DNA of 15,294 bases from an uncultured SAR116 cluster alpha proteobacterium (GTDB lineage: Bacteria; Pseudomonadota; Alphaproteobacteria; Puniceispirillales; Puniceispirillaceae): NCBI GenBank assembly GCA_902520575.1, contig CABYOG010000025.1, forward strand, positions 1 to 15,294, given 5' to 3'. The translations under genes were made by a program, and so were the position numbers. Position 1 is the stretch's first letter. Every line of letters begins with the position of its first letter. The notes below the pieces were generated by a model, which did no database searches, had not been told where the DNA came from, and was given only the letters and a program-made list of their open reading frames with translations. This document shows positions 910 through 15,294 of this stretch, piece after piece.

Positions 910-1035
910 GTATATAGACTTCCCCGGGCCTGAAGCTTGCTAATCTATGTTGCCCAAGCCCCACTGAAGTCAAAGTACTCAAGCTAATTATTCCCGCTTC
1001 TACTTCCCACTTAATTGAGGTAAAGGTTTTTTGAA

Positions 1036-1500: not shown

Positions 1501-2654
1501 GAATTGTGAAGCACCAATATTGTTGGGATAAAATATGATTGAATAACATTAAGGCCATACCCCTCACCATAGCCTTGCCCAACACCTGCAGTAGTCCATC
1601 CGCCTATTTGGTCTATCATGTCTGAAGGACATTGAACGGCTCTGAGCCTGTCACGCATTGAATGCCTGAAGGAATGAATGACACACCCATCTGGCACATA
1701 ATCCTGAAGCCACTTATTTAATGCGCCACTAGCTGAGTTTGCATTAGCGGTCTTCTCATTACAGTATCTAGGAAAGGCAAAAATACTATCATCATTTGCC
1801 TCTAGAAGCCTCTTGCAAGCCCACAGAGACGCACCCACAAGAGGAATGTCTCTTTGGCTGCCTTTGGTCTTTAAGCGCCTCCATGAATGAGGAACGAGCC
1901 TTACATGAGGCACTTCATCTTCAAGGATAATGTCTTCCTTAACCAGCCCAACGGCTTCTCCAAGCCTCATGCCAGTATCAGATATAAGGGCTATCAGCCA
2001 CCTTATGTCGTCATCAATCTCCATACATTTTGATTGAATGGTTCTGATGTCCTCAATTGGTATAGGTTTCCGCTTGGATACATTTTCTTCTTCTGGGAAG
2101 AATGTCTTTGAGAAGGCATTAGAACAGTCATAACCATGTTCTGTAATAGCTATGTTTAGGATGGCTCTTATAGACGCAAAGACACGCTTCACTGTCCTTA
2201 CGGTCATTCCTTGCTTTAAACACCAATCACGGAACTGTGCAGCTTCTGAGGAGGAATAAGAGCCTATTGGTCTATCTCCTAAGAGACTAATCACATAGTC
2301 AGTGTTACGAGTAGCTGTTCTTATGAACACCTTGTCCTTACCACCAGCTTTCAGCCGTAAGTATAACTCACGTGCTTCAGATAAAAGGCAACTGTCATCA
2401 GACACATCATCTGACTTCACTAAGTCCAATGCTGGTATGTCTATCTTTTGTAATCTCAGACCAAGCCAATAATCCTCAAGTCTTTGAGACACAGATTTAG
2501 AGGAATGAATAGCTGATTTATAGGATTTGGTTCGTAAGCTGAAACACAGTCTCTTAACACTGTAATGTTCAGCTAAATCTAAAGGCACACGCCTCACATA
2601 ATAGAACACACCATCACGTAATAGCACATGATTTGCTGCATATTTGTTTTTCAT
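1497..2654 (-). CDS. tyrosine recombinase / phage-type integrase
   Basis: 385-residue site-specific integrase. Residues 1-50 resemble the short N-terminal domain found before many proteobacterial integrases (LLRDGVFYYVRRVP). Residues ~85-190 form the core-binding helical domain and ~200-375 the catalytic domain. Catalytic residues can be placed: R230 in SDTGMRLGEA, a Lys near 262-264, H327-x-x-R330 in HSFRH, W353 in IGGW (in place of the second His) and nucleophile Y362, nine residues later, so the enzyme appears intact. The ATG at 2654 is 78 nt from the 3' end of tRNA-Thr and the gene points away from it, the classic position of an integrase whose element sits in that tRNA. The element would then extend leftward past base 1. 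No strong ribosome binding site is seen. Confidence 0.92.
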   Translation of the reverse strand: MKNKYAANHVLLRDGVFYYVRRVPLDLAEHYSVKRLCFSLRTKSYKSAIHSSKSVSQRLEDYWLGLRLQKIDIPALDLVKSDDVSDDSCLLSEARELYLRLKAGGKDKVFIRTATRNTDYVISLLGDRPIGSYSSSEAAQFRDWCLKQGMTVRTVKRVFASIRAILNIAITEHGYDCSNAFSKTFFPEEENVSKRKPIPIEDIRTIQSKCMEIDDDIRWLIALISDTGMRLGEAVGLVKEDIILEDEVPHVRLVPHSWRRLKTKGSQRDIPLVGASLWACKRLLEANDDSIFAFPRYCNEKTANANSASGALNKWLQDYVPDGCVIHSFRHSMRDRLRAVQCPSDMIDQIGGWTTAGVGQGYGEGYGLNVIQSYFIPTILVLHNS

Positions 2655-2684
2655 CTTGTTTCACACCAATCGCCATGCAGACAC

Positions 2685-2720
2685 ATGAAGTGAAGCAATT
2701 CAATTGGTTGTATGAAGTGA
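2685..2720. repeat. two direct copies of ATGAAGTGA between integrase and tRNA-Thr
   Basis: The nonamer ATGAAGTGA occurs at 2685-2693 and 2712-2720, spaced 27 bp, in the 78-bp gap between the integrase start and the tRNA-Thr 3' end. Short direct repeats in this position often are arm-type binding sites for the integrase or sites for an excision factor. That role is inferred from position only. Confidence 0.35.
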
Positions 2721-2732
2721 TACAAGGAAGAA

Positions 2733-2808
2733 TGGTGCTGGTGGAGAGACTCGAACTCCCAACCGCCCGATTACAAATCGGGTGCTCTACCAATTGAGCC
2801 ACACCAGC
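2733..2808 (-). tRNA. tRNA-Thr (anticodon TGT)
   Basis: A 76-nt cloverleaf on the minus strand. The acceptor stem GCTGGTG pairs with CACCAGC, the D-arm is GGCTCAATTGGTAGAGC-like, the anticodon loop reads TTTGTAA with anticodon TGT, the T-arm contains GTTCGAG, and the 3' CCA is encoded (2733-2735). It reads ACA-type threonine codons. It lies 48 nt downstream of the rlmB stop on the same strand. Its 3' end faces the integrase and is the likely integration target. Confidence 0.97.
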
Positions 2809-2856
2809 ACTCGGTCGATGATTTAGATCATAAATATTGTTTATGTCAAGCAGATT

Positions 2857-3744
2857 TCACCCTGGGAATTGGGTGGCGTAAAGCGCAATCGCGGCCGCAA
2901 CAGATACATTTAGACTTTCAGAACTTTCTGCCATATCGATAGAAGTCATAATATCACAGGCCTCGCGGGTGAGGCGACGCAGTCCACTGCCTTCAGAACC
3001 CATGATGAGCCCCAGATGTGTGGTTGTAGCTAGCTGGTTTATGTTTGTAGGGGCTGTGGCCTCCAGGCCGGCTAATGTAACAAAATGTTCTTTGAGGGTT
3101 GCCAGTGCACGGGCCAGGTTATTCACCCTTACAAGTGGAACATCTTCAAGCGCTCCTGCAGCAGCTTTGGCCAAAGCACCGGTTTCATCTGGGGCATGCC
3201 GGCTGGTTAGGATGATCGCATCTGTGCCAAAGGCACGAGCTGACCTCAGAATGGCGCCGATATTGCGGGGGTCTGTGACCTGATCCAGGATCAGAAATCT
3301 TCTATGTGGCTTTCCAGAATGCAAAAGATTAACAAGATCGCTCAAGTCAGGCTGATCTAGAGGTTTTGTATGCAGAATTAGACCTTGATGTGGCAGGATA
3401 GTCTGCTCAGACTGTTTTGATTTTAGCATCTGCGTCAATTGGGTTCGTGACAAGAATGTTATTGGGGGGAGGGGCCGAGTGCTGACGGTACGAAGCTTGT
3501 CTGCTGCTTCTTCAGTGGCAAAAAGCTGAATAGGGTCACGCTGAACGTTGGACAGGGCAGCTATCACGGAATGGTAGCCATATAAAAGCAATCCGGAACG
3601 GGCTTTTACTGCATTGTCTGGTAAGGTGGTCAGCACCGTTTTACTTGCCAGAGAAGTCTTGTCGGGCTGATTTCTATGGAAATTGGTCTGATTCAATGTT
3701 TTTTTTGGTTTTTTTGGCCGCATCTGGTGTTTCACTGTTGACAA
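2857..3744 (-). CDS. rlmB: TrmH/SpoU-family 23S rRNA (guanosine-2'-O-)-methyltransferase RlmB
   Basis: 295-residue SPOUT methyltransferase. Residues ~1-48 are a basic, Lys-rich, low-complexity tail. Residues ~50-130 match the SpoU substrate-binding domain (LLYGYHSVIAAL). Residues ~148-290 are the trefoil-knot catalytic domain with motif 1 DPRNIGAILRSA (158-169), motif 2 GSEGSGL (249-255) and motif 3 SLNVSVAAAI (277-286). In E. coli RlmB methylates G2251 of the 23S rRNA P-loop; the same reaction is assumed. The start is TTG at 3744, with AAAGG about 9 nt upstream; a GTG (3735) and an ATG (3723) follow in frame but lack a good ribosome binding site. rlmB divergent from tRNA-Tyr and tuf is common in alphaproteobacteria, which supports the assignment over other TrmH paralogues. 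Confidence 0.9.
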   Translation of the reverse strand: MSTVKHQMRPKKPKKTLNQTNFHRNQPDKTSLASKTVLTTLPDNAVKARSGLLLYGYHSVIAALSNVQRDPIQLFATEEAADKLRTVSTRPLPPITFLSRTQLTQMLKSKQSEQTILPHQGLILHTKPLDQPDLSDLVNLLHSGKPHRRFLILDQVTDPRNIGAILRSARAFGTDAIILTSRHAPDETGALAKAAAGALEDVPLVRVNNLARALATLKEHFVTLAGLEATAPTNINQLATTTHLGLIMGSEGSGLRRLTREACDIMTSIDMAESSESLNVSVAAAIALYATQFPG

Positions 3745-3828
3745 TTTGGCTGACCTTTCTTAATTCGCAGAACCGCCTTTTTTTCGCAAGCGTTATAGCT
3801 AAGGAAAATTAGGAATAATTGAAGTTTC

Positions 3829-3913
3829 GGTGGGGTGGCCGAGTGGTTAAAGGCAGCAGACTGTAAATCTGCCCGCGTAGCGTACGTAGGTTCGAATCCT
3901 ACCCCCACCACCA
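3829..3913 (+). tRNA. tRNA-Tyr (anticodon GTA)
   Basis: An 85-nt class II tRNA with a long variable arm. Acceptor strands are GGTGGGG and CCCCACC, the anticodon loop is CTGTAAA with anticodon GTA, the variable arm covers roughly CCCGCGTAGCGTACG, the T-arm has GGTTCGAATCC, the discriminator is A and CCA is encoded. It is 85 nt upstream of tuf on the same strand and is likely processed from the tuf transcript. In many alphaproteobacteria tRNA-Gly lies between this gene and tuf; it is missing here. Confidence 0.97.
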
Positions 3914-3923
3914 TATCAACCCG

Positions 3924-3970
3924 GCCTGTCCTCACCGGAGATACAGTTGAGGCTGTAAAACGGGACAGGC
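3924..3970 (+). promoter_or_regulatory. nested hairpin in the tRNA-Tyr/tuf spacer
   Basis: Between tRNA-Tyr and tuf, GCCTGTCC (3924-3931) pairs perfectly with GGACAGGC (3963-3970). Inside it TACAG (3942-3946) pairs with CTGTA (3953-3957). The hairpin ends 28 nt before the tuf start and does not cover its ribosome binding site (AAGGA, 3986-3990). Possible roles are a processing signal separating the tRNA from the tuf message, a weak attenuator (TTTA follows) or an mRNA-stabilising leader. The pairing is seen directly; the role is inference. Confidence 0.45.
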
Positions 3971-3998
3971 TTTATGTGCGAGATGAAGGACAAAAACC

Positions 3999-5189
3999 AT
4001 GTCTAAGGAGAAGTTTGATCGTTCGAAGCCTCATTGTAACATTGGGACTATTGGCCATGTTGATCACGGTAAGACGACACTTACAGCGGCGATTACGAAG
4101 GTTATGGCTGAGGCTGGTGGAGCTGAGTTCAAGGCGTATGATGAGATTGACGGTGCGCCAGAGGAGCGTGCTCGTGGGATCACGATTTCGACAGCCCATG
4201 TTGAGTATGAGACAGAGAATCGTCACTATGCGCATGTAGATTGTCCTGGCCATGCTGACTATGTAAAGAACATGATTACAGGAGCAGCACAGATGGACGG
4301 TGCCATTCTTGTTGTTTCAGCAGCAGATGGACCAATGCCACAGACCCGCGAGCATATTCTTCTTGCGCGTCAGGTTGGTGTGCCAGCGCTGGCTGTGTTT
4401 ATGAACAAGGTTGATCAGGTTGATGATGAAGAGCTGTTAGAACTTGTTGAGATGGAGATCCGTGAGTTGCTGTCATCTTATGATTTCCCTGGCGATGACA
4501 TTCCGATTGTAAAGGGCTCAGCTCTAGCTGCTCTTGAAGGTGGTGATGCCGCAATTGGCAATGATGCAATTAAAGAGTTGATGGCACAAGTCGACAGCTA
4601 TATTCCGCAGCCTGACCGTCCAAAGGATCAGCCTTTCTTGATGCCGATTGAAGATGTTTTTTCAATTTCAGGTCGGGGCACTGTTGTAACAGGTCGGATT
4701 GAGGCTGGTGTTGTGAATGTTGGTGAGGAGATTGAGATTGTTGGTCTGAAGGAGACTACCAAGACGACCTGTACTGGCGTTGAGATGTTCCGCAAGTTGC
4801 TTGACCAGGGTGAGGCTGGCGATAATGTGGGTGTTTTGTTGCGGGGTACGAAGCGTGAGGAAGTTGAGCGAGGTCAGGTTCTGGCTAAGCCTGGTTCGAT
4901 TACACCGCACACGAAGTTCAAATGTGAAGCTTATGTGCTGACTAAGGAAGAAGGTGGCCGTCATACGCCATTTTTCTCGAACTATCGTCCACAGTTCTAT
5001 TTTCGGACTACAGATGTGACTGGTTCAGTTGAACTGCCTGATGGCACAGAGATGGTGATGCCAGGTGATAACATTGCGATGACCGTGACCTTGATTGCGC
5101 CAATTGCGATGGATGAAGGCCTGCGCTTTGCTATTCGTGAAGGTGGTCGTACTGTTGGAGCTGGCGTAGTCGCATCTATCGTCGATTAA
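3999..5189 (+). CDS. tuf: translation elongation factor Tu
   Basis: 396 residues, full length for EF-Tu, the GTPase that delivers aminoacyl-tRNA to the ribosome. G1 is GHVDHGKT (19-26), switch I carries the conserved RGITI segment (about 59-63), G3 is DCPGH (81-85), G4 is NKVD (136-139), and domains II and III follow in full through the C-terminal [12 protein letters not shown]. The start is fixed by AAGGA 8 nt upstream. tRNA-Trp begins 11 nt after the stop, so tRNA-Tyr, tuf and tRNA-Trp are probably one transcription unit ending at the terminator at 5307. There is no sign of damage. In many alphaproteobacteria this cluster continues into secE-nusG-rplK, which does not happen here. Confidence 0.99.
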
Positions 5190-5200
5190 AAAGAGCTTAA

Positions 5201-5276
5201 AGGAGTGTAGCTCAATTGGTAGAGCACCGGTCTCCAAAACCGGGGGCTGGGGGTTCGAGTCCCTCCACTCCTGCCA
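5201..5276 (+). tRNA. tRNA-Trp (anticodon CCA)
   Basis: A 76-nt cloverleaf. The acceptor strands AGGAGTG and CACTCCT pair fully, the discriminator is G, CCA is encoded, the anticodon stem is CCGGT/ACCGG with loop CTCCAAA (anticodon CCA), and the T-arm is GGGGG-TTCGAGT-CCCTC. It follows tuf by 11 nt. A degenerate copy of its 3' half is found at 14097-14150, so this gene probably served as the attachment site for the DNA that now lies downstream. Confidence 0.98.
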
Positions 5277-5306
5277 TTATAAAGTAAAACAAAATCAGTG
5301 TTTTAG

Positions 5307-5347
5307 TAGCCCTCGGCGTTAACGTGACGGGGGCTATTTTTTTATTT
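5307..5347 (+). terminator. intrinsic terminator after tuf/tRNA-Trp
   Basis: TAGCCC (5307-5312) pairs with GGGCTA (5331-5336), and weaker pairing continues inward (TCG with CGG-type pairs, one G-A mismatch). A run of seven T then ATTT follows at 5337-5347. It sits 30 nt past tRNA-Trp, a suitable end for the tRNA-Tyr/tuf/tRNA-Trp transcript. Confidence 0.75.
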
Positions 5348-5365
5348 GTGCAAACTTTTGTGCAA
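5345..5365. repeat. direct repeat TTTGTGCAA x2 near tRNA-Trp 3' end
   Basis: TTTGTGCAA occurs at 5345-5353 and 5357-5365, 12 bp apart and about 70 bp past tRNA-Trp. Helically spaced repeats just inside an island end fit arm-type recombinase sites. No recombinase gene is adjacent, so the role is inference. Confidence 0.35.
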
Positions 5366-5481
5366 GTTTTTTGCTCCACCCCTTGGAATATATGACGTAA
5401 AGCGTGTCATCAAGGCATAATGAACAGTTTTTGAACTCTAGGCGTCAAGTTGGTTTTCAGAGTAACCTCGGAGCTTTAAAA

Positions 5482-6597
5482 TTATTGATTGACACTCTCT
5501 TTTGTAATTTTAATTTTCCTAGAATTGGGGGTTATTTCAACCTTGAGAATTTCGTTTTGAGTTCCAATCCGCATTCTTGGCCCCCATGTTCCACTGCCTG
5601 AGGATACAAATAATCTGGATTGTTTTTCTTTGAACAATCCGTAGACGGTTTTAAATTGCATCCGGACTAGAAAATTAAAAGGAAATATTTGTCCATTATG
5701 AGTATGGCCTGATAACATAAGGTCTGTAAATTCTCGCGCTCTCTCCCAGATAGATGGTTTGTGAACTAACAATAAGTTGAATAAATTTTTTTTAATCATA
5801 CTTTGCGCTAATAGAAATTGGCGCTCAGGCGACTGATTATCACTAATGCCGATTAAATTTATTCCACCTAAAATTATATTTTCATTATCCAACATTGATA
5901 TATTTTGCATGGGCAGTGCTTGCAATTTTATCTGATAATCTTTGACATAATATTCATGATTACCAGTAACGAAGTAGATCGGAGATTTTATCCGTTTTAG
6001 GGGGGTGAGGTCCTTTGAATTAAATGAACTTGAGTCGAAAAGGTCGCCACCGATTAATAAAAAATCAAAGTCTAAATTTTCTATAATGGTGCAAATCTTT
6101 TCCAAGTGGCTTCTGGGATTTGAGCCTAGATGAACGTCACTCAGAAATAGAAATTTTGCTGTTGCATTAATCTTAGCACTTTCAAATTTTAAAACTTTTA
6201 ATTTAATAAGCCGACCTTGAATTAGGCTATGTAGGCTCAACAAGAAAAAAAGGAAAACGGATGAACAACCAATTTCATATTTATAATCCTTCTGAAAAAT
6301 TGAGAATAATAGACCGAAGTTGAAAACCCAGAAGCCGATAAAGCCGAGTCCCATGCCATTATGAATAAAACTTCTAATTAAAGAATTAGTGAAGTGTGTC
6401 TTTAAATGAATTAACGTTACACAAGTAATTATTAATGATGGAATGATTAAATAAAACAGACTCGTTTTAAAATCAAAAATTAGGTAGCTACTTAAAAACA
6501 CCGGATGAACGTAGAGTAGATAGCTTAATAACAGAATTAGAAGAGCAAAAATTATAAATCTCACGGATTGCGCTAAGTATCTATTAAATAAAATCAC
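5482..6597 (-). CDS. membrane-anchored metallophosphoesterase (YkuE/YaeI-like)
   Basis: 371 residues. Four hydrophobic segments (about 12-32, 47-65, 82-102, 110-127) form an N-terminal membrane domain, followed by a calcineurin-like phosphoesterase domain (~147-360). The dinuclear-metal motifs are complete: SDVHLG (D154, H156), GGDLFD (D185), GNHE (N213, H214), VHKP (H279) and GHTHNG (H298, H300). Relatives include membrane-linked phosphoesterases and lipid-phosphate or UDP-diacylglucosamine pyrophosphatases, but the substrate cannot be read from sequence. The start is GTG at 6597 with only a weak AGGG upstream. The gene is strongly AT-rich compared with tuf and rlmB, consistent with transfer. 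It is alone on its strand here, with a 150-nt gap to the cyclase gene. Confidence 0.85.
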   Translation of the reverse strand: MILFNRYLAQSVRFIIFALLILLLSYLLYVHPVFLSSYLIFDFKTSLFYLIIPSLIITCVTLIHLKTHFTNSLIRSFIHNGMGLGFIGFWVFNFGLLFSIFQKDYKYEIGCSSVFLFFLLSLHSLIQGRLIKLKVLKFESAKINATAKFLFLSDVHLGSNPRSHLEKICTIIENLDFDFLLIGGDLFDSSSFNSKDLTPLKRIKSPIYFVTGNHEYYVKDYQIKLQALPMQNISMLDNENIILGGINLIGISDNQSPERQFLLAQSMIKKNLFNLLLVHKPSIWERAREFTDLMLSGHTHNGQIFPFNFLVRMQFKTVYGLFKEKQSRLFVSSGSGTWGPRMRIGTQNEILKVEITPNSRKIKITKESVNQ

Positions 6598-6689
6598 TAT
6601 TGAAAAAGCCCTGATAATAATTGTGCGCGGTGATCTGGATTACTCTACATCTCTAGCTTGAACGGTGGTGTGAGCCTTTCAATTCTTTT

Positions 6690-6718
6690 AAGGTTGAGTG
6701 CATTTTTTTCTCCCAAGA
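6690..6718. repeat. direct repeat of the gmaS 3' end, left copy
   Basis: This stretch matches 9280-9309 (the last codons of the glutamine-synthetase-like gene) at about 26 of 30 positions. GAGTGCATT and TTTCTCCCAAGA are exact, with a one-base gap between. The reading frame is not kept, and similarity stops on both sides, so it is a short repeat and not a longer gene remnant. Together the copies bracket the cyclase gene. Confidence 0.5.
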
Positions 6719-6747
6719 GAGTTTTTCCCAGGAATATTGAGTAAAGA

Positions 6748-8604
6748 TCATAGCTCAGAGTTTAGCCTTTCCAGAACAACTGACACATCTTCACGCAAGC
6801 TTTTTAAATAAAGAAGTTGGTCTAACGCTTTATTTGTAAACCCTGACTTTTTTGCTCTAACAAAGAAAGTTTTTGCTAATTTTTCTTCGCCAACTTTGTA
6901 TTTATCGTAGGCAATGAATGCAAGTAATGGTGCTGGGAGATCTATTGCGTCTAGCACGTCCTCGAGGAGAATATACATTTCCTTTTTCTGTTGATTTTCG
7001 TATAATCTGAAGGCAAGGCGAGTTGTTGAGCGCCAATTCGTATCAATTGGTGTAACGTCGAATTGGTTTCGAGCATGTGTTGCTGCCTCATGAGTTTTGC
7101 CGCACCTGCCATAGACAACACTTGCGTAGCCATAACTATCAGCATTGCCCGCTTTTTGATGAGCAAGCCTCAAATCATTGAAAGCTTGCTCACATCCTGT
7201 GATTCCCATACTCAAGCTTAATAATGCTCTACTGGCATAGTTCTCAGGACTTGGTTTAATACTTATCGTCAAGTCCAGTTCTTTTCTAAGCTTGTCAAGG
7301 TTCTCCGGTGTTTTAGGAAGTTTGTTCATGGCCATTCCAAAAAAATCCAACCAGGTATCCTGAACCAACCAATCTTTCTGTTTATTTGGTCCTGGCCACC
7401 TTTTCATTTCAACAAGAATTCTGCTCGCATTTACAAAACCTTCCTCCGTCCATTTCGCCATTTCGGACCTAAAATTCGCATATTGAACTAGCTGCCGAGG
7501 AGTAATAGGGGTTTTTCGCCAACTAAAGTAGCTTTCATAGAGCCCTTTTTGATTTAAAACATTCACAAGAAATTCACTTAGGATATGCTCTCCTACCTGA
7601 TCTTGAAAACTGAATTTATTGGTGAGCTCGAAATCTTTGATAGCGGAAACAACAACCTGTTTCTTTTCAAGATCGGATATCTCAATGTTTATCCTTGCTA
7701 CAGATCCGAAAATTTGCATGGACGGTGAAACTAAAAATTTTACGCCATTCAAACTAGCTAATTTTTCATTTTCAATTTTTAGTTCCTCAAGGCGAGTTGC
7801 CGTTTTTCTTGGAACGATTCTAATTGAACCTGATTTTGATAATTGAGAAGTAATAGCCTCTGTTAGTCCTTCCAAAAATTGTTTTTCTTCGCTTTTAAAA
7901 TTTGCCCCCTCAACCCTAGAGATAAAAACTAGCGGCTTCGAGGACAAAGCTATTTCAGCTTCATCCTCTGTTTGTTTTGAGAAGAAAAAAAATGATGCTA
8001 GCCCAATAATTAAAAAAACAGATACACCCCCCGCCATAGAAAACCTCAACCTATTACTCGACTTGATTTTTCTTCTGTGCTTCGGGTCTAGAAGAATATC
8101 AAAAGCATGAAATTCATTTTGCTTTATCTTTTGAATGCCAAGGTCGTGAAATTCATATTTAGTCTTTCCCTTTACAAAGTCATAAATGACTTTGGAAATG
8201 CTTATGCCGCTAGTTTGGGCGAGAGCTTCGAGCCTCGCGGCTATATTCACTCCATCACCCATTAAATTACCTTTTTCTATGACTACATCACCGGAATTTA
8301 TTCCTATGCGGAACTCTAGTTTCACTGATGTATCTGATAGGGAATTTCGCTTTGTGATCGACTGCTGGAATTCTACCGCGCACTCAACTGCCGATACAGC
8401 ACTGGGGAACTCTGCCAAAAAAGAGTCGCCACCAGTATTAAATAAGCGACCTTTATGCTTAGCGAATAATTTCAAAAGTATCTTTTCGCAGGAACGCAGA
8501 TTTTTAAGAGTATTACTCTCGTCAATCTCTACATGTTTGCTGTAACTGACCACATCAGTTGCAAAAATTACCGCTACTTTGCGTTCAATTTCTTCCGCAG
8601 ACAT
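6748..8604 (-). CDS. class III adenylate/guanylate cyclase with membrane segment and TPR-like C-terminus
   Basis: 618 residues from the ATG at 8604; the preceding TTG at 8607 is also possible. Residues ~9-172 are a class III cyclase catalytic domain with metal-binding Asp 17 (FATDVVSYS) and Asp 60 (NTGGDSFLAEF), the RIGINSGDV strand, and the transition-state residues N120 and R124 (GVNIAARLEA). It should make cAMP, or cGMP, from the nucleoside triphosphate. One hydrophobic helix (~187-209) follows. The region ~222-340 resembles the TolB-N/FlgO-like domain often coupled to such cyclases. The rest is helical and TPR-like, with repeated Ala/Tyr patterns, and may be a sensor or partner-binding domain. 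The gene is AT-rich and alone on its strand between two copies of a short direct repeat. The nucleotide product and the signal sensed are unknown. Confidence 0.88.
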   Translation of the reverse strand: MSAEEIERKVAVIFATDVVSYSKHVEIDESNTLKNLRSCEKILLKLFAKHKGRLFNTGGDSFLAEFPSAVSAVECAVEFQQSITKRNSLSDTSVKLEFRIGINSGDVVIEKGNLMGDGVNIAARLEALAQTSGISISKVIYDFVKGKTKYEFHDLGIQKIKQNEFHAFDILLDPKHRRKIKSSNRLRFSMAGGVSVFLIIGLASFFFFSKQTEDEAEIALSSKPLVFISRVEGANFKSEEKQFLEGLTEAITSQLSKSGSIRIVPRKTATRLEELKIENEKLASLNGVKFLVSPSMQIFGSVARINIEISDLEKKQVVVSAIKDFELTNKFSFQDQVGEHILSEFLVNVLNQKGLYESYFSWRKTPITPRQLVQYANFRSEMAKWTEEGFVNASRILVEMKRWPGPNKQKDWLVQDTWLDFFGMAMNKLPKTPENLDKLRKELDLTISIKPSPENYASRALLSLSMGITGCEQAFNDLRLAHQKAGNADSYGYASVVYGRCGKTHEAATHARNQFDVTPIDTNWRSTTRLAFRLYENQQKKEMYILLEDVLDAIDLPAPLLAFIAYDKYKVGEEKLAKTFFVRAKKSGFTNKALDQLLYLKSLREDVSVVLERLNSEL

Positions 8605-9276
8605 CAATTGTTCCAGCCAAATTGAAAATACTAAAATTATGCATGAGGGTTTGTCGATGTCCAGAATAACATAGGAGTTTAATATGCCCGGCCCTTATTC
8701 CTCATGTCAAAGAGTTGGAAAGAGCCATCGAAAAAGTATTTGAAATTTAAATTCAAGCTTGTAAGATTTGGGTTGGAGACTGGCAATATGGAAATTTACT
8801 TTCCCCATTTATCGAATGGGCAACCCAATTCGCGTCGGAATGAGGGATTAACCACACATAATCGACTGCGATTGGCTGCAGACAGAATAGCACTAGCCCC
8901 TACTGCTATGGTGATATTAGTTATAACTTTACGCGTGATTTTTAAGCGATGGTTTATCGGCATCTTTGCACTTTTGAGGCTGAAACCTAATCAAAATACA
9001 AGAAGCGCGTAACGGCATTAATTAAAAGAAGACCAAATGCTAATTTAATCTCATTGTGCCTAAGCTGCGTGTCTTCCCATAGAAGGAAAACACCACACTT
9101 TTTTACATTTGAAGGTTTAAATGAAACGATTTCTCTTCTCTAAAAGATGGTCAGAAAGGGCCCAGTTAAATAAAAAGGACTGGAATAAAGATGGTTTGTA
9201 TATGTCCTAAATACCAAAAGTTCGCTCAAGATTATCGTGAAATGCTGAACAATTGGATTTCAGATTCGACTTAAAT
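8605..9276. other. 672-bp interval with no intact gene
   Basis: This gap lies between the divergent start of the cyclase gene and the 3' end of the gmaS-like gene. Its left part holds a probable gene relic (8684-8843). A 102-codon plus-strand frame (8704-9012) overlaps the relic in another frame and resembles no family I know. A 29-codon frame at 9121-9210 is too short to support. No convincing terminator was seen, only a 7-bp AT-rich hairpin just after the gmaS stop without a T run. The stretch reads as decayed DNA. Confidence 0.5.
8684..8843 (+). pseudogene. relic of a small gene (frameshift plus nonsense)
   Basis: AGGAG (8673-8677) precedes ATG (8684), but after two codons the frame must shift by one base to read a protein-like, helical segment (ALIPHVKELERAIEKVFE). 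That frame hits TAA at 8748-8750 and then continues in the same frame with another protein-like segment (KIWVGDWQYGNLLSPFIEW) up to TGA at 8843. The Trp/Tyr/Phe-rich second part and the amphipathic first part look like former coding sequence. I do not recognise the family. It may be chance, but two good segments in one frame behind a proper ribosome binding site favour a relic. Confidence 0.35.
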
Positions 9277-10584
9277 CTAAAGGTCGAGTGCATTCGCTTT
9301 CTCCCAAGATGAGAAATGTGAAACATAAGAATTCCACTCAGACATTTTCAATTTGAAGAAAGCAGAAGAAAATTCATGCCCTAGTGCAGATTTTAATGTC
9401 TCGTCAGCGTCAAAACCGCGCAAAGCATCAAGCAAGTTAAGGGGTAGTTTTTTGTCATTGCCAAGCTTGCTGCTAGAGGAATACATGTCAATATCAGAAT
9501 GCTGCCCTGGGTCAGCTTCCGTTTGAATTCCATTTATTCCTGCTGCAATGATAACGGCCTGTAGTAAGTAGGGATTAGCTGCTCCATCTGGAAGCCTAAA
9601 TTCAAATCTGCCAGGACCAGGCACACGCACCATGTGAGTTCGGTTATTACCAGTCCAAGTTACAGTATTTGGGGCCCATGTTGCCCCGGAAAGCGTCTGG
9701 GGTGCATTGATTCGTTTGTAGCTGTTTATAGTCGGGTTGGTAATTGCCACCATTGATGGTGCGTGATTTACAATTCCACCGAGAAAATTTTTTCCTGTTT
9801 TTGAAAGGCCAAAATCCATATTTTCGTCTGCAAAAATATTTTTATTGCCCGCTGTGTCCCAAACTGAGATGTGAGTGTGACAACCGTTACCGGTTAGCCC
9901 TTCAATAGGCTTAGGCATAAAAGTTGCGCGAAAACCATACTTTTCAGCCACTGATTTTGTCATAAATTTAAAAAAGCTGTGCCTATCAGCAGTTTTGAGC
10001 GCGTCGTCAAATTCCCAATTCATTTCGAATTGACCATTTGCATCTTCATGGTCATTCTGATAGGGGCCCCAGCCCAACTCCAGCATGTAATCACAAAGTT
10101 CTGCGATCATATCATATCTACGCATTACCGCTTGCTGGTCATAACAGGGTTTATCGGCAATATCGTATTGATCAGCAATTTGTTCTCCATCAGAGGTGAG
10201 CAGAAAAAACTCTGCCTCAACCCCAGTTTTGATTCTCATGTTGTCCTGAGCAGCCTTGGCAACTTGCTTTTTAAGCACATTGCGCGGTGCCTGTTCGACT
10301 AGGTTTCCTTCCATGATACAGTCGCTCGCAACCCAGGCAATTTCCGGTTTCCAAGGAAGTTGCACAATAGAATCAGGGTCTGGGATAGCCAACATGTCTG
10401 GGTGCGCTGGTGTTAAATCCAACCAAGCTGCAAAACCTGCAAAACCAGCTCCTTCTTTCTGCATATCAGATATAGCTTGAGCAGGTACAACCTTGGCTCG
10501 CTGATATCCAAATAGATCGGTGAATGAAATCATGAAATATTTTATCCCCTTGTCTTTGGCATATCCAACTAAATCCATAGTCAT
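9277..10584 (-). CDS. gmaS: gamma-glutamylmethylamide synthetase / type III glutamine synthetase-like ligase
   Basis: 435 residues, the length of GmaS/GlnT proteins (about 430-450) rather than GlnA (about 470). The N-terminal beta-grasp domain (~1-100) is followed by the catalytic domain, with E123/E125 (GVEAEFF), E180 and E187 (NDHEDANGQFEMNW), ATP-site GNGCHTHIS (232-240), NPTINSYKRIN (283-293), NNRTHMVR (313-320) and RFEFRLPD (326-333), so the active site looks complete. GmaS ligates methylamine to glutamate with ATP to give gamma-glutamylmethylamide, the first step of the N-methylglutamate route. GlnT proteins of the same family sit in identical operons in rhizobia, so ammonia or another amine is possible. 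AGGAG lies 7 nt before the ATG. It is the last gene of a four-gene operon, 81 nt after mgsC. Confidence 0.85.
   Translation of the reverse strand: MTMDLVGYAKDKGIKYFMISFTDLFGYQRAKVVPAQAISDMQKEGAGFAGFAAWLDLTPAHPDMLAIPDPDSIVQLPWKPEIAWVASDCIMEGNLVEQAPRNVLKKQVAKAAQDNMRIKTGVEAEFFLLTSDGEQIADQYDIADKPCYDQQAVMRRYDMIAELCDYMLELGWGPYQNDHEDANGQFEMNWEFDDALKTADRHSFFKFMTKSVAEKYGFRATFMPKPIEGLTGNGCHTHISVWDTAGNKNIFADENMDFGLSKTGKNFLGGIVNHAPSMVAITNPTINSYKRINAPQTLSGATWAPNTVTWTGNNRTHMVRVPGPGRFEFRLPDGAANPYLLQAVIIAAGINGIQTEADPGQHSDIDMYSSSSKLGNDKKLPLNLLDALRGFDADETLKSALGHEFSSAFFKLKMSEWNSYVSHFSSWEKANALDL
9280..9309. repeat. direct repeat at the gmaS 3' end, right copy
   Basis: These are the final coding bases of the gmaS-like gene, repeated in the same orientation at 6690-6718. 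If the segment between was inserted here, the gene's 3' end was preserved or rebuilt, as happens when integrases target gene 3' ends. Confidence 0.5.
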
Positions 10585-10665
10585 TTCACCGCTCCTAACT
10601 TGTATGTGCTTTCAAATTTTATAAGATATAGTTCAAAAGAGATAAGCGTCTCTAGTACTCTGATT

Positions 10666-12006
10666 TTAATAATGATTTATTCCAGGCACCCAACTCGTGC
10701 CAGCTAATGGAACTCTGGCCATTGCTGCAGCCTCTATTGAGATTGCGCATAGGTCTTCTGGCTCGAGATGCAACACATGATTTTTCCCACAAGCGCGAGC
10801 AATTGCTTGGGCTTCCATTGTCATGACTTGCAAATAATTTTTTAATCTTCGACCACCTTCTATTGGGTTGAGCCGCTTCATTAATTCTGGGTCTTGTGTT
10901 GTTATTCCTGCTGGATCGTTACCCTTATGCCAAGCATCGTAAGCACCTGCAGTGGTTCCGATCGCACGATAGTCTTGTTCCCATTTAGGGTCATTATCAC
11001 CAAGCGCTATTAATGCTGAAGATCCTATGGATGCAGCGTCTGCTCCCAGAGCCAATGCTTTAGCAACATCAGCTCCGTTTCGAATACCACCTGAAATAAT
11101 AAGCTGGACTTTGCGGTGCAAATTGAGTTCCTCTAGGGCTTGAACTGCGGGCCGAATGCAGGCCAATGTGGGCTGCCCAACATGCTCAATAAAGACGTTC
11201 TGGGTAGCTGCAGTCCCACCCTGCATCCCATCCAGAACAACAACATCTGCACCCGCCTTAACCGCTAAGGTGGTATCATAATAAGGACGAGCTCCGCCAA
11301 TTTTCACATAAATAGGTTTTTCCCAATTCGTAATTTCTCGCAGCTCAAGGATCTTGATTTCGAGATCATCAGGCCCCGTCCAGTCAGGATGTCGGCAAGC
11401 AGACCTCTGATCGATCCCAGCGGGAAGGTCGCGCATTTTTGCTACTCGTTCATCAATTTTTTCACCCAAGAGCATGCCGCCGCCTCCAGGCTTAGCACCT
11501 TGACCTATAACTATTTCGATGGCATCGCAGCGTCGAAGGTCGTCAGGATTCATGCCGTAACGGGAGGGTAGATATTGATAAACAAGTTTTTCTGAATGAC
11601 CTCTTTCTTCCTCAGTCATCCCTCCATCACCTGTGGTTGTTGAAGTTCCTGCTTGAGTAGCTCCCCGGCCAAGTGCTTCCTTAGCTGGCCCGGACAAAGC
11701 ACCAAAACTCATACCTGCTATGGTAATCGGAATATCAATTTCTACAGGGCTTTTAGAAAACCTAGTTCCTAATGTAACGTTGGTTTCACATTTTTCACGA
11801 TAACCTTCCAAAGGGTATCGCGACATTGAAGCGCCTAAAAAAAGAAGATCGTCAAAATGCGGTAGCTTACGTTTAGCTCCACCGCCCCGAATATCATAAA
11901 TACCAGTTTCTGCAGCTCGCCTAATTTCGGCGTTAATTTCACTTGTAAAGGTTTGTGAGCTACGCGGTAGACCTTGAGCAATTTCACTCAATGCTTTATT
12001 TTTCAT
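10666..12006 (-). CDS. mgsC: N-methylglutamate synthase subunit C (FMN-binding glutamate-synthase domain)
   Basis: 446 residues, corresponding to the FMN-binding domain of glutamate synthase as a stand-alone subunit (MgsC/GlxD type). It shows GMSFGALS (98-105), QGAKPGGGGML (169-179), the flavin/substrate-site DGMQGGT (259-265), and the phosphate-binding SGGIRNGADVAKALALGADA (305-324). The C-terminal region contains ACGKNHV, EPEDL and ARVPLAGTS, typical of this subfamily. The Cys-x5-Cys-x4-Cys pattern that holds the 3Fe-4S cluster in large glutamate synthases is not seen. In the methylamine pathway MgsABC exchanges the amide of gamma-glutamylmethylamide to form N-methylglutamate. GAGGG lies 7 nt before the ATG and overlaps the end of mgsB, 10 nt upstream, indicating tight coupling. 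Confidence 0.85.
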   Translation of the reverse strand: MKNKALSEIAQGLPRSSQTFTSEINAEIRRAAETGIYDIRGGGAKRKLPHFDDLLFLGASMSRYPLEGYREKCETNVTLGTRFSKSPVEIDIPITIAGMSFGALSGPAKEALGRGATQAGTSTTTGDGGMTEEERGHSEKLVYQYLPSRYGMNPDDLRRCDAIEIVIGQGAKPGGGGMLLGEKIDERVAKMRDLPAGIDQRSACRHPDWTGPDDLEIKILELREITNWEKPIYVKIGGARPYYDTTLAVKAGADVVVLDGMQGGTAATQNVFIEHVGQPTLACIRPAVQALEELNLHRKVQLIISGGIRNGADVAKALALGADAASIGSSALIALGDNDPKWEQDYRAIGTTAGAYDAWHKGNDPAGITTQDPELMKRLNPIEGGRRLKNYLQVMTMEAQAIARACGKNHVLHLEPEDLCAISIEAAAMARVPLAGTSWVPGINHY

Positions 12007-12016
12007 TTTTCAACCC

Positions 12017-12700
12017 TCAGTAAGCATTCCTGTTATCAATATCAAAGTGGTAGAGCTTACGTGCTGAGCCGTATCGAGTAAATTCTTCTGGTTCAGCGTT
12101 TGCCCCGGACTCCTTTAACAACGTTCGTAGTTTTACTAAGTCATCCGGCCGCATTTCTTTTTTGACACAGTCAGCACCAAGGCTTCTCACACTTCCTCTT
12201 ACAAAAAGTGTTGCCTCATAAAGCGAGTCACCTAACGCTTCCCCAGCATTACCCAGCACAACTAGCGTACCTGCTTGGGCCATGAAAGCTGACATGTGAC
12301 CAACGTTGCCGTGAACAACAATATTAATACCCTTCATTGAGATACCACAGCGAGACGCTGCGTTGCCTTTGACTATTAAAAGACCTCCTCGTCCGGTGGC
12401 GCCGGCATATTGGCTGGCATCACCTTCAACAATAACAGTTCCTGACATCATGTTTTCAGCAACACCTGGACCGGTTGATCCTGAAACAGTCACTGTCGCT
12501 TTCTTATTCATACCGGCACAGTAATAACCGGTGGAACCTTTAATGTTAATTTCAATTGGCGCGTCAACGCCGACAGCGATTGCATGGTTACCCCGCGGGT
12601 TTATAATTTCCCACTTCAAATCAGTTTCTTTCTTTGCTTGGTCGTGGAGGGCTTGATTTAAAGCCCGTAGTCCTTTGCTTTCAAGATCAAAAGTGCGCAT
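12017..12700 (-). CDS. mgsB: N-methylglutamate synthase subunit B (GXGXG beta-helix domain)
   Basis: 227 residues, equivalent to the C-terminal GXGXG domain of glutamate synthase (MgsB/GlxC). After an N-terminal ~45-residue part, about seven right-handed beta-helix turns run from ~55 to ~175. They show repeated Gly-containing strands such as GYYCAGMNKKATVTVSG, GTVIVEGDASQYAGATG, GLLIVKGNAASRCGISM, INIVVHGNVGHMSAFMA and GTLVVLGNAGEALG. In glutamate synthases this domain is structural and links glutaminase and FMN sites. The ATG directly follows the mgsA stop (TGAATG), so translation is probably coupled. The gene ends 10 nt before mgsC. I am sure of the domain; MgsB or GlxC depends on what the operon acts on. 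Confidence 0.86.
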   Translation of the reverse strand: MRTFDLESKGLRALNQALHDQAKKETDLKWEIINPRGNHAIAVGVDAPIEINIKGSTGYYCAGMNKKATVTVSGSTGPGVAENMMSGTVIVEGDASQYAGATGRGGLLIVKGNAASRCGISMKGINIVVHGNVGHMSAFMAQAGTLVVLGNAGEALGDSLYEATLFVRGSVRSLGADCVKKEMRPDDLVKLRTLLKESGANAEPEEFTRYGSARKLYHFDIDNRNAY

Positions 12701-13597
12701 TCAGTGGCTCCAGAAATAGACTGTTGCAGGCTCAGGTTCCCATACACGAGCATTATCTATGCCCGGCAGGTTGACTAGTGCTCGGTACTCTGACCCGAAT
12801 GCAACAAATTGTTCCGTTTCTGCCATAACAGCGGGTTTGCAGGCAATTGGATCACGTAAAACAGCAAATCCATCTCTTGTTCCAACAACGAAAGTATAAA
12901 ATCCGTCCAAGTCTTTCAGAGCGTTGTTCAAAGCAATTTCGAGACCGGCGCCCAACTTCATCTGATGGGTTAAGTATGCCGCAGCAACCTCACTGTCATT
13001 ATCTGTGTTGAGAGAAACACCGTTCCGTGTGAGTTCTCGTCGTAAATTATTGTGATTTGAAAGAGAGCCGTTATGAACCAAGCACTGGTCAAGACCTGTA
13101 GAGTAGGGATGGGCGCCCATCGTATTTACAGCGGATTCAGTAGCCATTCGAGTATGACCAATGCCATGTGTTCCTTCTTTCGTCTGAAGTGAAAATCGAT
13201 TAGCCACTTCTGCAGGCAATCCGGTTTCCTTATAAATTTCTATGCTGTTTCCCAAACTCATTATGCTGAACGAGGGTGCAATCGTTTTCAGAAGATTTAA
13301 CACATTGTGCATATCTCCGGATGGCACCATCAAGACAGCGTGGGTATCATTCAAATTCAGTTTTACGGTTGTATCGAGTTTTTGATTAATTCTGTTTACA
13401 AGATCTTCAAAGCCGCTTTCAGGAGAGTTTGAGCGCAACGTAATTTTTTTAAATTTATCATTGCCATTGCTGTAAATCGCTACGCCAGAGCTGTCAGGAC
13501 CACGCTCAGACATGGTAACCAGCATTTCGGTTAATAAGGTTCCAAGACTGCTTCGCAAGCTCGGATCTTTTATAAACAATCCAACAATGCCGCACAT
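12701..13597 (-). CDS. mgsA: N-methylglutamate synthase subunit A (class II glutamine amidotransferase)
   Basis: 298 residues of a class II (Ntn) glutaminase, the amidotransferase part of a split glutamate synthase (MgsA/GlxB). The catalytic Cys2 follows the initiator Met (MCGIVGLF) and is exposed by Met removal. Other site elements are SERGPDSSG (30-38), GHTR (147-150), HNGSLSNHN (175-183) and NTDNDSE (197-203). It would release the amine or ammonia from the gamma-glutamyl amide. The start is fixed because Cys must be residue 2; GGGGCGG lies about 10 nt upstream. It is the first gene of the operon, with about 500 bp of gene-free DNA upstream where the promoter must lie. Confidence 0.87.
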   Translation of the reverse strand: MCGIVGLFIKDPSLRSSLGTLLTEMLVTMSERGPDSSGVAIYSNGNDKFKKITLRSNSPESGFEDLVNRINQKLDTTVKLNLNDTHAVLMVPSGDMHNVLNLLKTIAPSFSIMSLGNSIEIYKETGLPAEVANRFSLQTKEGTHGIGHTRMATESAVNTMGAHPYSTGLDQCLVHNGSLSNHNNLRRELTRNGVSLNTDNDSEVAAAYLTHQMKLGAGLEIALNNALKDLDGFYTFVVGTRDGFAVLRDPIACKPAVMAETEQFVAFGSEYRALVNLPGIDNARVWEPEPATVYFWSH

Positions 13598-13709
13598 TAT
13601 GTGTTACCGCCCCGCTTTCAAATAAATTCTAAGTCAACTAAATCAATGCCTGAATTATTGTAAAATAAGATTCATTAAACCGCTGCTAGACGGATTTTCA
13701 ATAGTTTTA

Positions 13710-13725
13710 CTAAATGTGCATTTAG
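13710..13725. promoter_or_regulatory. inverted repeat CTAAATG-TG-CATTTAG upstream of mgsA
   Basis: Perfect 7-bp arms separated by 2 bp, centred about 120 bp upstream of the mgsA start. The size suits a dimeric repressor or activator site for the mgsABC-gmaS operon. No regulator gene is adjacent, so function is inference. Confidence 0.35.
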
Positions 13726-13798
13726 CTGATGAGTATTCAAGTGATCAAAAATCAGTATTTTAAAAATAGTGGCGTGTCGAAGAATTTAAGAGGCTTTT

Positions 13799-13876
13799 CC
13801 CACGGATAAAAAAATATTCTTTCAAAAAGGGAACTGTGCACTCTGTCCACTTTTTGGAATTTTCAGTTTTTGTGGG
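13799..13876. repeat. nested inverted repeats
   Basis: CCCAC (13799-13803) can pair with GTGGG (13872-13876). Inside, TTTCAAAAAG (13820-13829) pairs with CTTTTTGGAA (13850-13859) through ten positions including one G-T, with a 20-nt loop that contains GTGCAC. It could be a structured RNA, a protein-binding region or an island-end feature. Confidence 0.35.
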
Positions 13877-13995
13877 CACATCGAGGGAAACCAATCGCTT
13901 GCAATAAGCCCTGCAGGCGCTGGAATTTGGCTGCAAGGGAACAAAGCTAACTTTGCAGCGCGATGCAAAAAAGCATGATGGGACGTTACAGCTAG

Positions 13996-14023
13996 TGCAT
14001 ACATTCTGCATACAAAACTGCAT
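13996..14023. repeat. three helically phased TGCAT repeats
   Basis: TGCAT occurs at 13996, 14007 and 14019; the first two copies extend to TGCATACA. Spacings of 11 and 12 bp put them on one DNA face. They lie about 75 bp inside the right tRNA-Trp repeat, as arm-type recombinase sites or an operator might. Confidence 0.35.
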
Positions 14024-14096
14024 GGGAATAGGTGGTAAACGATGGGCAGTATTTAGCGCAAATGCTACCAATTTAGGCTACATTACCCTTAAATAA

Positions 14097-14150
14097 CGGT
14101 CTCCAAAACCGGGAGCTGGGGGTCGAGCCCCTCTACTCCTGCCATTATAA
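14097..14150 (+). repeat. degenerate 3' half of tRNA-Trp (candidate attachment site)
   Basis: From CGGTCTCCAAAACCGGG through the encoded GCCA and on into ATTATAAA this matches tRNA-Trp 5228-5283. In the tRNA part there are three substitutions and one lost T in the T-loop. The 5' half (acceptor strand and D-arm) is absent, so it cannot be a tRNA. The form is what an island end at a tRNA leaves behind, with mutations because no function is conserved. Confidence 0.85.
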
Positions 14151-14176
14151 AAAGTAATAAGAACAATGGTATGAAG

Positions 14177-14208
14177 ACCCTTTCCCTATATTATGGGAGG
14201 GGTTTTAT
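14177..14208 (+). terminator. hairpin followed by T-rich tract, overlapping a ribosome binding site
   Basis: ACCCTTTCCC (14177-14186) pairs with GGGAGGGGT (14195-14203) with G-T pairs, loop TATATTAT, followed by TTTATTG. It looks like a weak intrinsic terminator. The 3' arm is also the GGAGGGG sequence before a possible TTG start at 14208, so it could instead hide that ribosome binding site. Confidence 0.4.
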
Positions 14209-14531
14209 TGGTCAAAATCGATCCACAAATAATTACATTTTTTACACCTTTTATGAAGTTGGAAATTTACAGAAGCCCTCGCAATGATGACGTTTGGATC
14301 AGTTTTTACACATTTGATGATGAATTGTTAGAAACCAAAATCATTCTGGACAAAGATACAACTCCCTTAAAAATAGAAAGCATATTTGAAGAGGGTTGAA
14401 AAAAACTTTTCCACTCTATAAAAGCCAAAAAAATTGAAGATGGGTTTCTAACAACTTACGCCAAAATGAAAAATATTTCAGATAAAGAAGACACCTCAAT
14501 TGAAGAGCTTTGTCGCAATCTGAGCAAATGA
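14193..14531 (+). pseudogene. small unknown gene interrupted by in-frame TGA
   Basis: A frame of 113 codons in which codon 69 (14397-14399) is TGA. Sequence on both sides is protein-like in the same frame: a beta-rich first part (LEIYRSPRNDDVWISFYTF, then LLETKIILDK) and a helical, Lys-rich second part (LFHSIKAKKIEDGFLTTYAK, then EDTSIEELCRNLSK) up to TGA at 14531. Reading Trp at codon 69 gives EEG-W-KKLFHS, so one TGG-to-TGA change explains it. The ATG at 14193 has no ribosome binding site; TTG at 14208 follows GGAGGGG by 5 nt and is the better start. I recognise no family. Readthrough is possible but less likely than simple decay. Confidence 0.5.
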
Positions 14532-14598
14532 TTTAATCACTCTCAGAACGGGCTGCCTTGAGCAAGAGACTGTTGTGTGAATTCTTTGATATTGGAAG

Positions 14599-14628
14599 AA
14601 AAAAGCCCTACTGGAAAACCAGCAGGGC
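14599..14628 (-). terminator. intrinsic terminator, minus strand
   Basis: GCCCT-A-CTGG-AAAA-CCAG-C-AGGGC (14605-14628) is a 9-bp stem with one mismatch and a tetraloop. On the minus strand it is followed by six T (14599-14604). It ends the transcript of the small gene at 14735-14995 and contains the stop of the possible small ORF at 14608-14742. Confidence 0.8.
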
Positions 14629-14742
14629 ATGATTCTTGCTTAAGAGAGGAAGCGTGTCATCTTGCCACCTTACCGCAAGCCGTTTGTTCTCTGCCGGCAA
14701 CGGCATGATTTGACGTTTATTAATTTTTCCTGCCTCAATCAC
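14608..14742 (-). CDS. possible translationally coupled 44-residue ORF
   Basis: A GTG at 14742 overlaps the stop of the preceding gene (TGA at 14737-14735) in the -1 arrangement. The frame runs 44 residues to TAG at 14610 and includes an internal ATG at 14706. The part KRLAVRWQDDTLPLLSKNHALLVFQ is protein-like and its codons are richer in G+C than the flanks. The stop lies inside the terminator stem, so the ORF would use nearly the whole transcript tail. No family is recognised. It may be a relic of a longer gene or a real small protein. Confidence 0.3.
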   Translation of the reverse strand: MIEAGKINKRQIMPLPAENKRLAVRWQDDTLPLLSKNHALLVFQ

Positions 14743-14995
14743 TCTCTATTTTTGTAAGTGTGTACATGTCATGTGTTAACCCAAGCTCAGGGGCAATTTG
14801 CGGCATCCGCTCAGCCATTGTTTTTTCCATTTTTTCGGGGTCAGTGATGGTCGCTTTTATCATTGCTGTATGCTCATCCACTTTTCCAACCAAATCATCT
14901 TTCATGAATGTTTTTCTCAATTCCAAATCGCCATCATATACAGATTTCCATTTATCATAACTACAAGTGAATTTCGCTACTAAAAACATTTCCAT
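14735..14995 (-). CDS. small ferredoxin-like alpha/beta protein, paralogue 2
   Basis: 86-residue protein of unknown function with GGAGG 6 nt before the ATG at 14995. The layout is strand (FLVAKFTC), helix (YDKWKSVYDGDLELRKTF), strand (DLVGKVDEHTAMIKATI), helix (PEKMEKTMAERMPQIAPELG) and a last strand (YTLTKIE). FTC, KVDEH, ME..M and the terminal Y.L match the protein at 346-603, and W..VYDG resembles W..AFDG in the protein at 634-909. No membrane or export signal is seen. Its transcript ends at the terminator at 14599-14628. The function is unknown; the fold suggests a small dimer that binds a ligand or makes a compact enzyme. Confidence 0.75.
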   Translation of the reverse strand: MEMFLVAKFTCSYDKWKSVYDGDLELRKTFMKDDLVGKVDEHTAMIKATITDPEKMEKTMAERMPQIAPELGLTHDMYTLTKIESD

Positions 14996-15183
14996 CTGTT
15001 ACCTCCATTTCAAATTTGTTGATAACTCAAACAAATGACCTCATTGCATCCTTTATCTGCAATCATACTACCAACGCCAGTGTAAAAAAACCTGTTCAAA
15101 ATGGGCATTTGGTGCGCTCTTGCTTACCAAAGTTTCACCTTTTTTAGATGTGCTCTAGACCCATTTATGATTTACAATTCTAG

Positions 15184-15294
15184 TTATTCAACTGGGGTCA
15201 TTATTTTTTGTCCCTCAATACCCATTGCAACTACAAGAGCTTTTACTGGAACATTTCCAATATTTTTTGACTCATGAACAATACCTACATCCTC
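15184..15294 (-). CDS. cupin-like protein, C-terminal end (5' part outside window)
   Basis: The minus-strand frame is open from the right edge to TAA at 15184-15186, giving the last 36 residues. The sequence VGIVHESKNIGNVPVKALVV followed by a Gly-Glu-Gly turn and TPVE fits the end of a single-domain cupin, where H-x-(3)-N-x-G-x-x-P-(V/A)-(K/R)-x-L-x-V is common. The His may be the last metal ligand of the barrel. Substrate and start cannot be judged. The 187 nt between this stop and the next gene's start (14995) should hold that gene's promoter. Confidence 0.5.
   Translation of the reverse strand, partial: EDVGIVHESKNIGNVPVKALVVAMGIEGQKIMTPVE

Follow-up and report, generated by a model that had tools for sequence, protein, structure and literature searches.

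A probable integrative element without a recognised integrase at tRNA-Trp of a SAR116 bacterium, with ends and cargo that recur at tRNA-Asp in relatives

Introduction

Genomic islands at RNA genes have been described in several lineages, and excerpts of four papers provide the closest descriptions to the locus studied here. Cis-mobilizable elements (CIMEs) retain att-like ends, lack genes for integration and transfer and can be stacked at one target gene by tandem accretion (PMC5704250). The ssrA genomic islands of Dehalococcoides are also arranged in tandem and are bounded by short repeats of the 3' part of the RNA gene, with an integration module in only some of them (PMC3146451). In Shewanella putrefaciens, tRNA-Trp is the integration locus of a composite island of 48 kb (PMC8978831). 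The tycheposons of Prochlorococcus and Methylophilaceae are bounded by tRNA genes, span 4–200 kb, have cargo with nitrogen functions and carry a tyrosine recombinase (PMC10872708). Here, we analyse a stretch of 15,294 nucleotides from an uncultured SAR116 cluster alphaproteobacterium (contig CABYOG010000025.1 of assembly GCA_902520575.1, positions 1–15,294; hereafter the window). We find that positions 5277–14096, which we call element A, are very probably an integrative element without an integrase, that is, a CIME-like island of cargo genes with the 3' half of tRNA-Trp as its dock.

Such an element belongs to a known class, comprising tRNA islands, CIMEs and their accretion; the unusual part is the apparent exchange of cargo between tRNA docks. 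The locus bears on the gain and loss of nutrient genes in small ocean bacteria, as it combines conserved ends, exchangeable cargo, a cargo found in siblings at two different tRNA genes, and an apparently nested operon for one-carbon nitrogen compounds.

Relatives were sampled from the family of genome G403 (61 genomes) and its order (136 genomes). Since many of these genomes are fragmented into many contigs, all family and order counts are lower bounds. RlmB of the window matched G403 at 72%, and a class-wide search over 385 genomes gave two at E 1e-55; in a scan of genome contigs with RlmB, the matches listed were from distant relatives. One RlmB match, at 53%, carries the name Candidatus Puniceispirillaceae, which makes it likely that the sampled family belongs to SAR116. 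A search with tuf DNA, which is 97–98% identical to G444, G445 and G447, provided 40 regions from 38 genomes; these, like all counts of tRNA-Trp regions below, are among the matches listed.

Results

The intact tRNA-Trp(cca), the docking site, lies at 5201–5276 on the plus strand (ARAGORN; Rfam RF00005). It is one of three tRNAs that ARAGORN detects in the window, together with tRNA-Thr and tRNA-Tyr close by, and Rfam at gathering scores found nothing beyond these three in the window. By local alignment we found a 3' fragment of this tRNA in the same orientation at 14097–14144. It comprises 48 nt from the anticodon stem to CCA and differs from 49 nt of the intact gene by three substitutions and one deletion. 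The best local score between 5201–5300 and 5301–15294 is 50, compared to a mean of 13.3 and a best of 20 in 200 dinucleotide shuffles, and ARAGORN calls no tRNA at the second copy. The repeat of the 3' half that was reported in the first-pass annotation is thus confirmed; its extension into the flank is weak. One of the substitutions is a C where the tRNA of the window has a T, and because C is the base of the intact tRNA-Trp in most relatives, the fragment has decayed less than the comparison within the window suggests. Element A is hence flanked by an intact tRNA on one edge and by the repeated 3' part of this tRNA on the other.

Both edges of element A are conserved in relatives. The left end (5277–5423, plus strand) contains a hairpin, a T-run and the repeats TTGTGCAAA (at 5346) and TTGTGCAAG (at 5358); the right end (13969–14096, plus strand) was delimited by alignment to ends in G446 and G447 and immediately precedes the fragment. 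Positions 5277–5378 are 93% identical to one end of a tRNA-Trp island in G446 and positions 14019–14096 are 88% identical to its other end, and that island carries a cargo, with an AtuA-type gene among others, that is unrelated to the cargo of the window. A weak likeness to the left end (82% over 55 bp) was also found beside the intact tRNA-Trp of G415. Judged by sequence, element A has thus kept counterparts of both attL and attR, consisting of the conserved ends together with the tRNA 3' parts. Among viral contigs, neither a left-end 22-mer nor a 33-base right-end pattern had an exact match.

The fragment might alternatively have been left behind by a local duplication that covered the tRNA-Trp region and involved no mobile element, and terminator-like hairpins, seen by eye in the letters, are indeed present in the flanks of both copies. 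However, the two flanks belong to different families: the flank to the right of the intact tRNA-Trp has its best match in G446 (z 24.5), whereas the flank to the right of the fragment matches G437, G424 and G467 (z 18.9, 15.8 and 10.6). Furthermore, the bases before the fragment are the conserved element end, which is also present before fragments of tRNA-Asp. We therefore rejected the duplication, which we consider highly improbable.

The ends share an arm-like motif, TTGTNNNA[AG], with 16 copies in ten ends compared to a mean of 1.17 and a maximum of 6 in 2000 shuffles; the motif was selected after the alignments had been viewed, and the shuffle test is therefore descriptive. The copies are mostly paired at a distance of 10 or 12 bp, and such a pair is present in the left end of the window. 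The middle bases of the motif are the same at both ends in the two elements that can be compared, namely GCA in the tRNA-Trp island of G446 and TGT in the tRNA-Asp island of G447. Integration could have proceeded by site-specific recombination in the anticodon loop, at CTCCAAA between CCGGT and ACCGG. A tyrosine integrase, acting in trans or since lost, would bind the repeats at the ends, and element A would have inserted ahead of element B, which is probably older (see below).

The six main open reading frames (ORFs) between the tRNA and the fragment share the minus strand: in the order of their coordinates, genes for a metallophosphoesterase and a class III cyclase protein are followed by gmaS, mgsC, mgsB and mgsA. 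The calcineurin-type metallophosphoesterase (5482–6597, PF00149) is AT-rich cargo, and the adjoining cargo gene (6748–8607, PF00211) encodes a protein with a class III adenylate/guanylate cyclase domain. Both recur in a tRNA-Asp island of G447, where 5430–6694 is matched at 93% and 6687–8056 at 93% as far as the contig end. The phosphoesterase alone is widespread (58 of the 136 order genomes at E 1e-25); only the copy of G447 is close (94%), and all others reach at most 59%.

A search with the left end of element A matched G447 and G454 and a search with the right end matched G446, G447 and G444, in all cases beside tRNA-Asp(gtc) or its fragments. In G447, the island edge is 79% identical to positions 5202–5423, and the other end together with the Asp fragment is 78% identical to 13969–14144. 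A first contig of this genome starts in chromosomal sequence, of which 5.0 kb are 91.7% identical to G446, and runs through tRNA-Asp, the left end and a further cyclase into the phosphoesterase and cyclase of the window at 93%. The start of a second contig (L172) corresponds to window position 8637, some 30 bp beyond the cyclase gene; this contig continues through the right end and the Asp fragment into the chromosome; we infer that the two contigs are neighbours. The pre-insertion state for G447 is found at the tRNA-Asp locus of G446 (2.3 kb at 89%, aligned from tRNA position 30). A second cargo shows the same distribution over two docks: 7.0 kb of AtuA-type cargo, 92.6% identical, lie by tRNA-Trp sequence in G446, on a contig that begins within tRNA-Trp, and at tRNA-Asp in G444. 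Throughout this pair, the cargo and the inner parts of the ends align, and the outermost bases and arm repeats alone differ. In G454, only 171 bp separate the intact tRNA-Asp from an Asp fragment; the left end is present and there is no space for cargo. A further observation concerns G444, where two elements are apparently stacked at tRNA-Asp fragments (L175, oriented 1–10942), the first with a Cons_hypoth698 protein and an aldehyde dehydrogenase.

How the cargo changed its dock can be approached by comparing the two tRNA genes. An integrase that uses tRNA-Asp as a second target could account for the change, instead of two resident islands recombining through their conserved ends. It would fit the 84% likeness of the tRNA-Trp and tRNA-Asp 3' ends over 37 nt, the nearly identical positions of the arm repeats in Trp and Asp elements, and the middle arm bases shared by both ends in the G446 Trp and G447 Asp islands. 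However, the 7-bp anticodon loops differ (CTCCAAA in Trp, CTGTCAC in Asp), and tyrosine integrases as a rule require matching overlaps. In addition, the AtuA pair differs in the outermost bases and arm repeats only, which is the pattern expected of recombination between ends. We thus regard the second target as rather unlikely.

Another part of the window resembles G447 at yet other tRNA genes. Positions 332–1531, with two small ORFs (one of them DUF3764) and a further ORF, are 88–98% identical per 200-bp bin to G447 (L193). The copies in G447 adjoin an integrase of the DUF6538 type at tRNA-Leu(gag); those in the window adjoin an integrase that is 59% identical, at tRNA-Thr(tgt). Within the window's integrase gene, only 1532–2015 aligns to G447 as DNA (67–75%). 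The region 332–2654 may be a third example of cargo shared between two tRNA genes.

We tentatively propose that in this marine lineage blocks of cargo move between docks at different tRNA genes (Trp and Asp, Thr and Leu), and that the terminal module stays with the dock. In the arm repeats (TTGT-NNN-A[AG]), the three middle bases might then act as an address, shared by the two ends of an element but not by different elements. If this is true, standardised ends would allow accessory genes to be exchanged in the lineage even where islands lack an integrase of their own. A few searches of the open-licence literature gave no earlier description of dock switching of cargo; one paper found for Puniceispirillaceae and genomic islands, PMC12421898, mentions neither tRNA nor integrase.

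The remaining cargo is a methylamine-type operon on the minus strand. It consists of a glutamylmethylamide synthetase of the gmaS type (9277–10584; TIGR03105, 646 bits at a cut-off of 470), an mgsC-like glutamate synthase domain (10666–12006, PF01645), an mgsB-like GXGXG domain protein (12017–12700, PF01493) and an mgsA-like glutamine amidotransferase (12701–13597, PF13522). GmaS shares 261 of 428 residues (61%) with the solved Rhodovulum enzyme (7cql). With the numbering anchored on Asp177 and residue roles taken from an excerpt of PMC7948447, all 14 checked residues are kept, including Asp177, Glu186, Arg312 and the pocket residues, with Trp300 and Ala48 in place of the residues of glutamine synthetase. 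Judged from its enzymes, the operon most likely converts monomethylamine to gamma-glutamylmethylamide and N-methylglutamate.

The operon lies on a segment (8697–13968) that is extra compared to the tRNA-Asp island of G447. On contig L172, the matches to 8637–8696 and to 13969 onward are only 103 bp apart, and there is therefore no gmaS-mgs there. The parts of element A also differ in composition, which we assessed by 4-mers against seven contig pieces of close relatives as background. The phosphoesterase part has a guanine-cytosine (GC) content of 0.337, and only 0.7% of background windows are equally far out; for the cyclase part the values are 0.389 and 2.4%. In contrast, the gmaS-mgs part (GC 0.449, 60%) is as host-like as the core control rlmB-tuf (GC 0.493, 56%). 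The expectation that the left part would be more AT-rich than tuf and rlmB is thus borne out, whereas the deviation does not extend to the operon. Because the G447 island has the same phosphoesterase-cyclase cargo without the operon, and because the operon is host-like while the other cargo is AT-rich, we think it likely that gmaS-mgsCBA is a later arrival, nested within the island. A simpler history would be one event, in which an old island with everything in 5277–14096, including the operon, integrated once and then lost its integrase. In line with this, the operon lies within both conserved ends, and its four genes are open, with lengths near those of relatives. The G447 island with its 103-bp spacing and the contrast in composition argue against a single event, which we regard as improbable. 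Loss of the operon in G447, rather than gain in the window, is conceivable as a variant. The first-pass view of the operon as plain island content thus needs correction.

Across the family, the operon is patchy. MgsC was found in 10 of 61 genomes, nine of them with copies at 80–85% and G421 with a partial copy at 81% and a paralogue at 51%. None of the 11 regions around these 11 matches contains a tRNA, and in the 40 tRNA-Trp regions no ORF matches the window's gmaS, mgs, phosphoesterase or cyclase genes (blastp 1e-5). The integration event, suggested earlier as the cause of the patchiness, therefore does not explain it in general. In a tree of MgsC with 41 chosen rows, the copies from the family of G403 are scattered over several places, and many forks are weak. 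A gene for a helix-turn-helix (HTH)-cupin protein adjoins the operon in five relatives (one member Pfam-checked), and it has no tblastn match in the window.

We next consider the sequence to the right of the fragment, which appears not to be plain core sequence: it is similar to the left end found in a second type of element. Positions 14145–14219 (plus strand) form a left-end-like flank of which 14151–14219 is 77–83% identical to flanks in three relatives: that of the intact tRNA-Trp in G437 and in G467, and that of an integrase in G424. In this second end type, conservation on the left extends over about 253 bp. The DNA to the right of the fragment is also AT-rich (GC 0.367; 2.2% of background windows equally far out). 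Because it resembles the left end of another element, two elements are probably stacked at the tRNA-Trp of the window; element B, whose left end starts at 14145, is probably the older one. Positions 14606–14773 are 76% identical to G447 DNA between the left end of the tRNA-Asp island and the first cyclase gene, so that parts of element B are also present at tRNA-Asp. A small ORF at 14735–14995 is similar by eye to two ORFs at 334–909 and has no Pfam match.

tRNA-Trp is a recurrent dock in these relatives. Contig-internal fragments without the 5' half occur in 5 of 38 genomes (G446 with two, G447, G437, G467 and G455), a count that excludes copies at contig ends (G446, G424, G426, G443 and G481). 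Among intact tRNA-Trp regions, 15 of 29 extend to an ORF that is nusG-like by motif, with no fragment within the region. An insert separates tRNA-Trp from the fragment in G437 and G467 and is absent from G464, G429, G468 and G469; the three genes that come next are shared, with proteins that are 62–85% identical. In G455, the fragment is followed by the same flank as the intact tRNA-Trp of G460, which has no fragment. A stretch of 1.2 kb between two tRNA-Trp fragments in G446 (L092, oriented 7163–8394) is perhaps another very short stacked element.

Consistent with the first-pass annotation, no integrase was recognised within 5277–14096, either by Pfam on the six main ORFs or by tblastn with the G424 integrase, which gave nothing significant; small overlapping ORFs were only partly scanned. 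Element A is therefore claimed only as an integrase-less derivative. The window does encode a tyrosine integrase of the DUF6538 type (1497–2654, outside 5228–14150). We ruled it out as the integrase of element A: it adjoins tRNA-Thr, and its relatives on L193, L195 and L197 lie by tRNA-Leu, tRNA-Leu and tRNA-Gly, with no ends of the element A type on the pieces concerned. Among elements of the second end type, G424 retains a tyrosine integrase whereas G437 and G467 have only the tail of such a gene; loss of the integrase with retention of the ends thus occurs in relatives, for another end type. Searched at E 1e-20, the remaining 60 family genomes gave no match to the G424 integrase, which also had no relative among viral contigs.

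Discussion

Integration at the 3' end of tRNA-Trp is strongly supported by the conserved ends at both edges and by filled and empty pairs in relatives. These pairs, obtained by aligning the loci of relatives, concern sibling islands at Trp and Asp; there is none for the window's own Trp site. Several observations weigh against our interpretation of element A. Among the relatives found, none has the window's Trp site with the same flank and without element A, and on the fragment side the flank is matched along no more than about 70 bp. The window ends before secE and before the far end of element B, and the tRNA-Asp island of G447 is divided between two contigs. The arm motif has no copy in the right end of the window or in one of the two G444 right ends, and the middle bases of the two arm copies in the Asp end of G446 differ. 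Of 16 PF00589 matches in G444, G445, G446, G447 and G454, none is on a contig with element A-type ends. Seven of their surroundings were examined: five of the seven pieces carry tRNA-Leu, Ser, Gly, Pro or Arg genes, and no element A-type ends were found on any. The evidence consists of sequence comparison, and neither excision nor transfer was seen.

The first-pass annotation had described the island as old and immobilised. The lack of a recognised integrase agrees with immobility, whereas the same cargo at another tRNA in G447, at 93% DNA identity, does not agree with this description. The definite end sequences can be used to find circular intermediates, the integrase and further cargo in the clade.

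We finally compare element A with the known systems, as far as the excerpts describe them. In contrast to tycheposons, no tyrosine recombinase was recognised in element A, and we thus do not class it there; an integrase within the element, as in a typical tRNA 3'-end island, was likewise not recognised. Dehalococcoides islands involve a serine recombinase and the transfer-messenger RNA (tmRNA) gene as target, whereas here the targets are tRNA-Trp and tRNA-Asp and no recombinase was seen. The island of Shewanella putrefaciens has the tRNA-Trp locus in common with element A; it belongs to another lineage and is likened by description rather than by sequence. The operon resembles the GmaS-MgsABC part of the N-methylglutamate pathway in the conserved GmaS residues and in the split glutamate synthase subunits within one operon; unlike in the full pathway set, the dehydrogenase mgdABCD is not among the window ORFs scanned with Pfam. 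Unlike CIMEs, the cargo of element A is also docked at a second tRNA with the termini of that dock, and no autonomous parent with ends of this type was found among the relatives. Like CIMEs, element A has no integration or transfer genes among its six main ORFs by Pfam, keeps att-like ends and is probably stacked with another element at one target.

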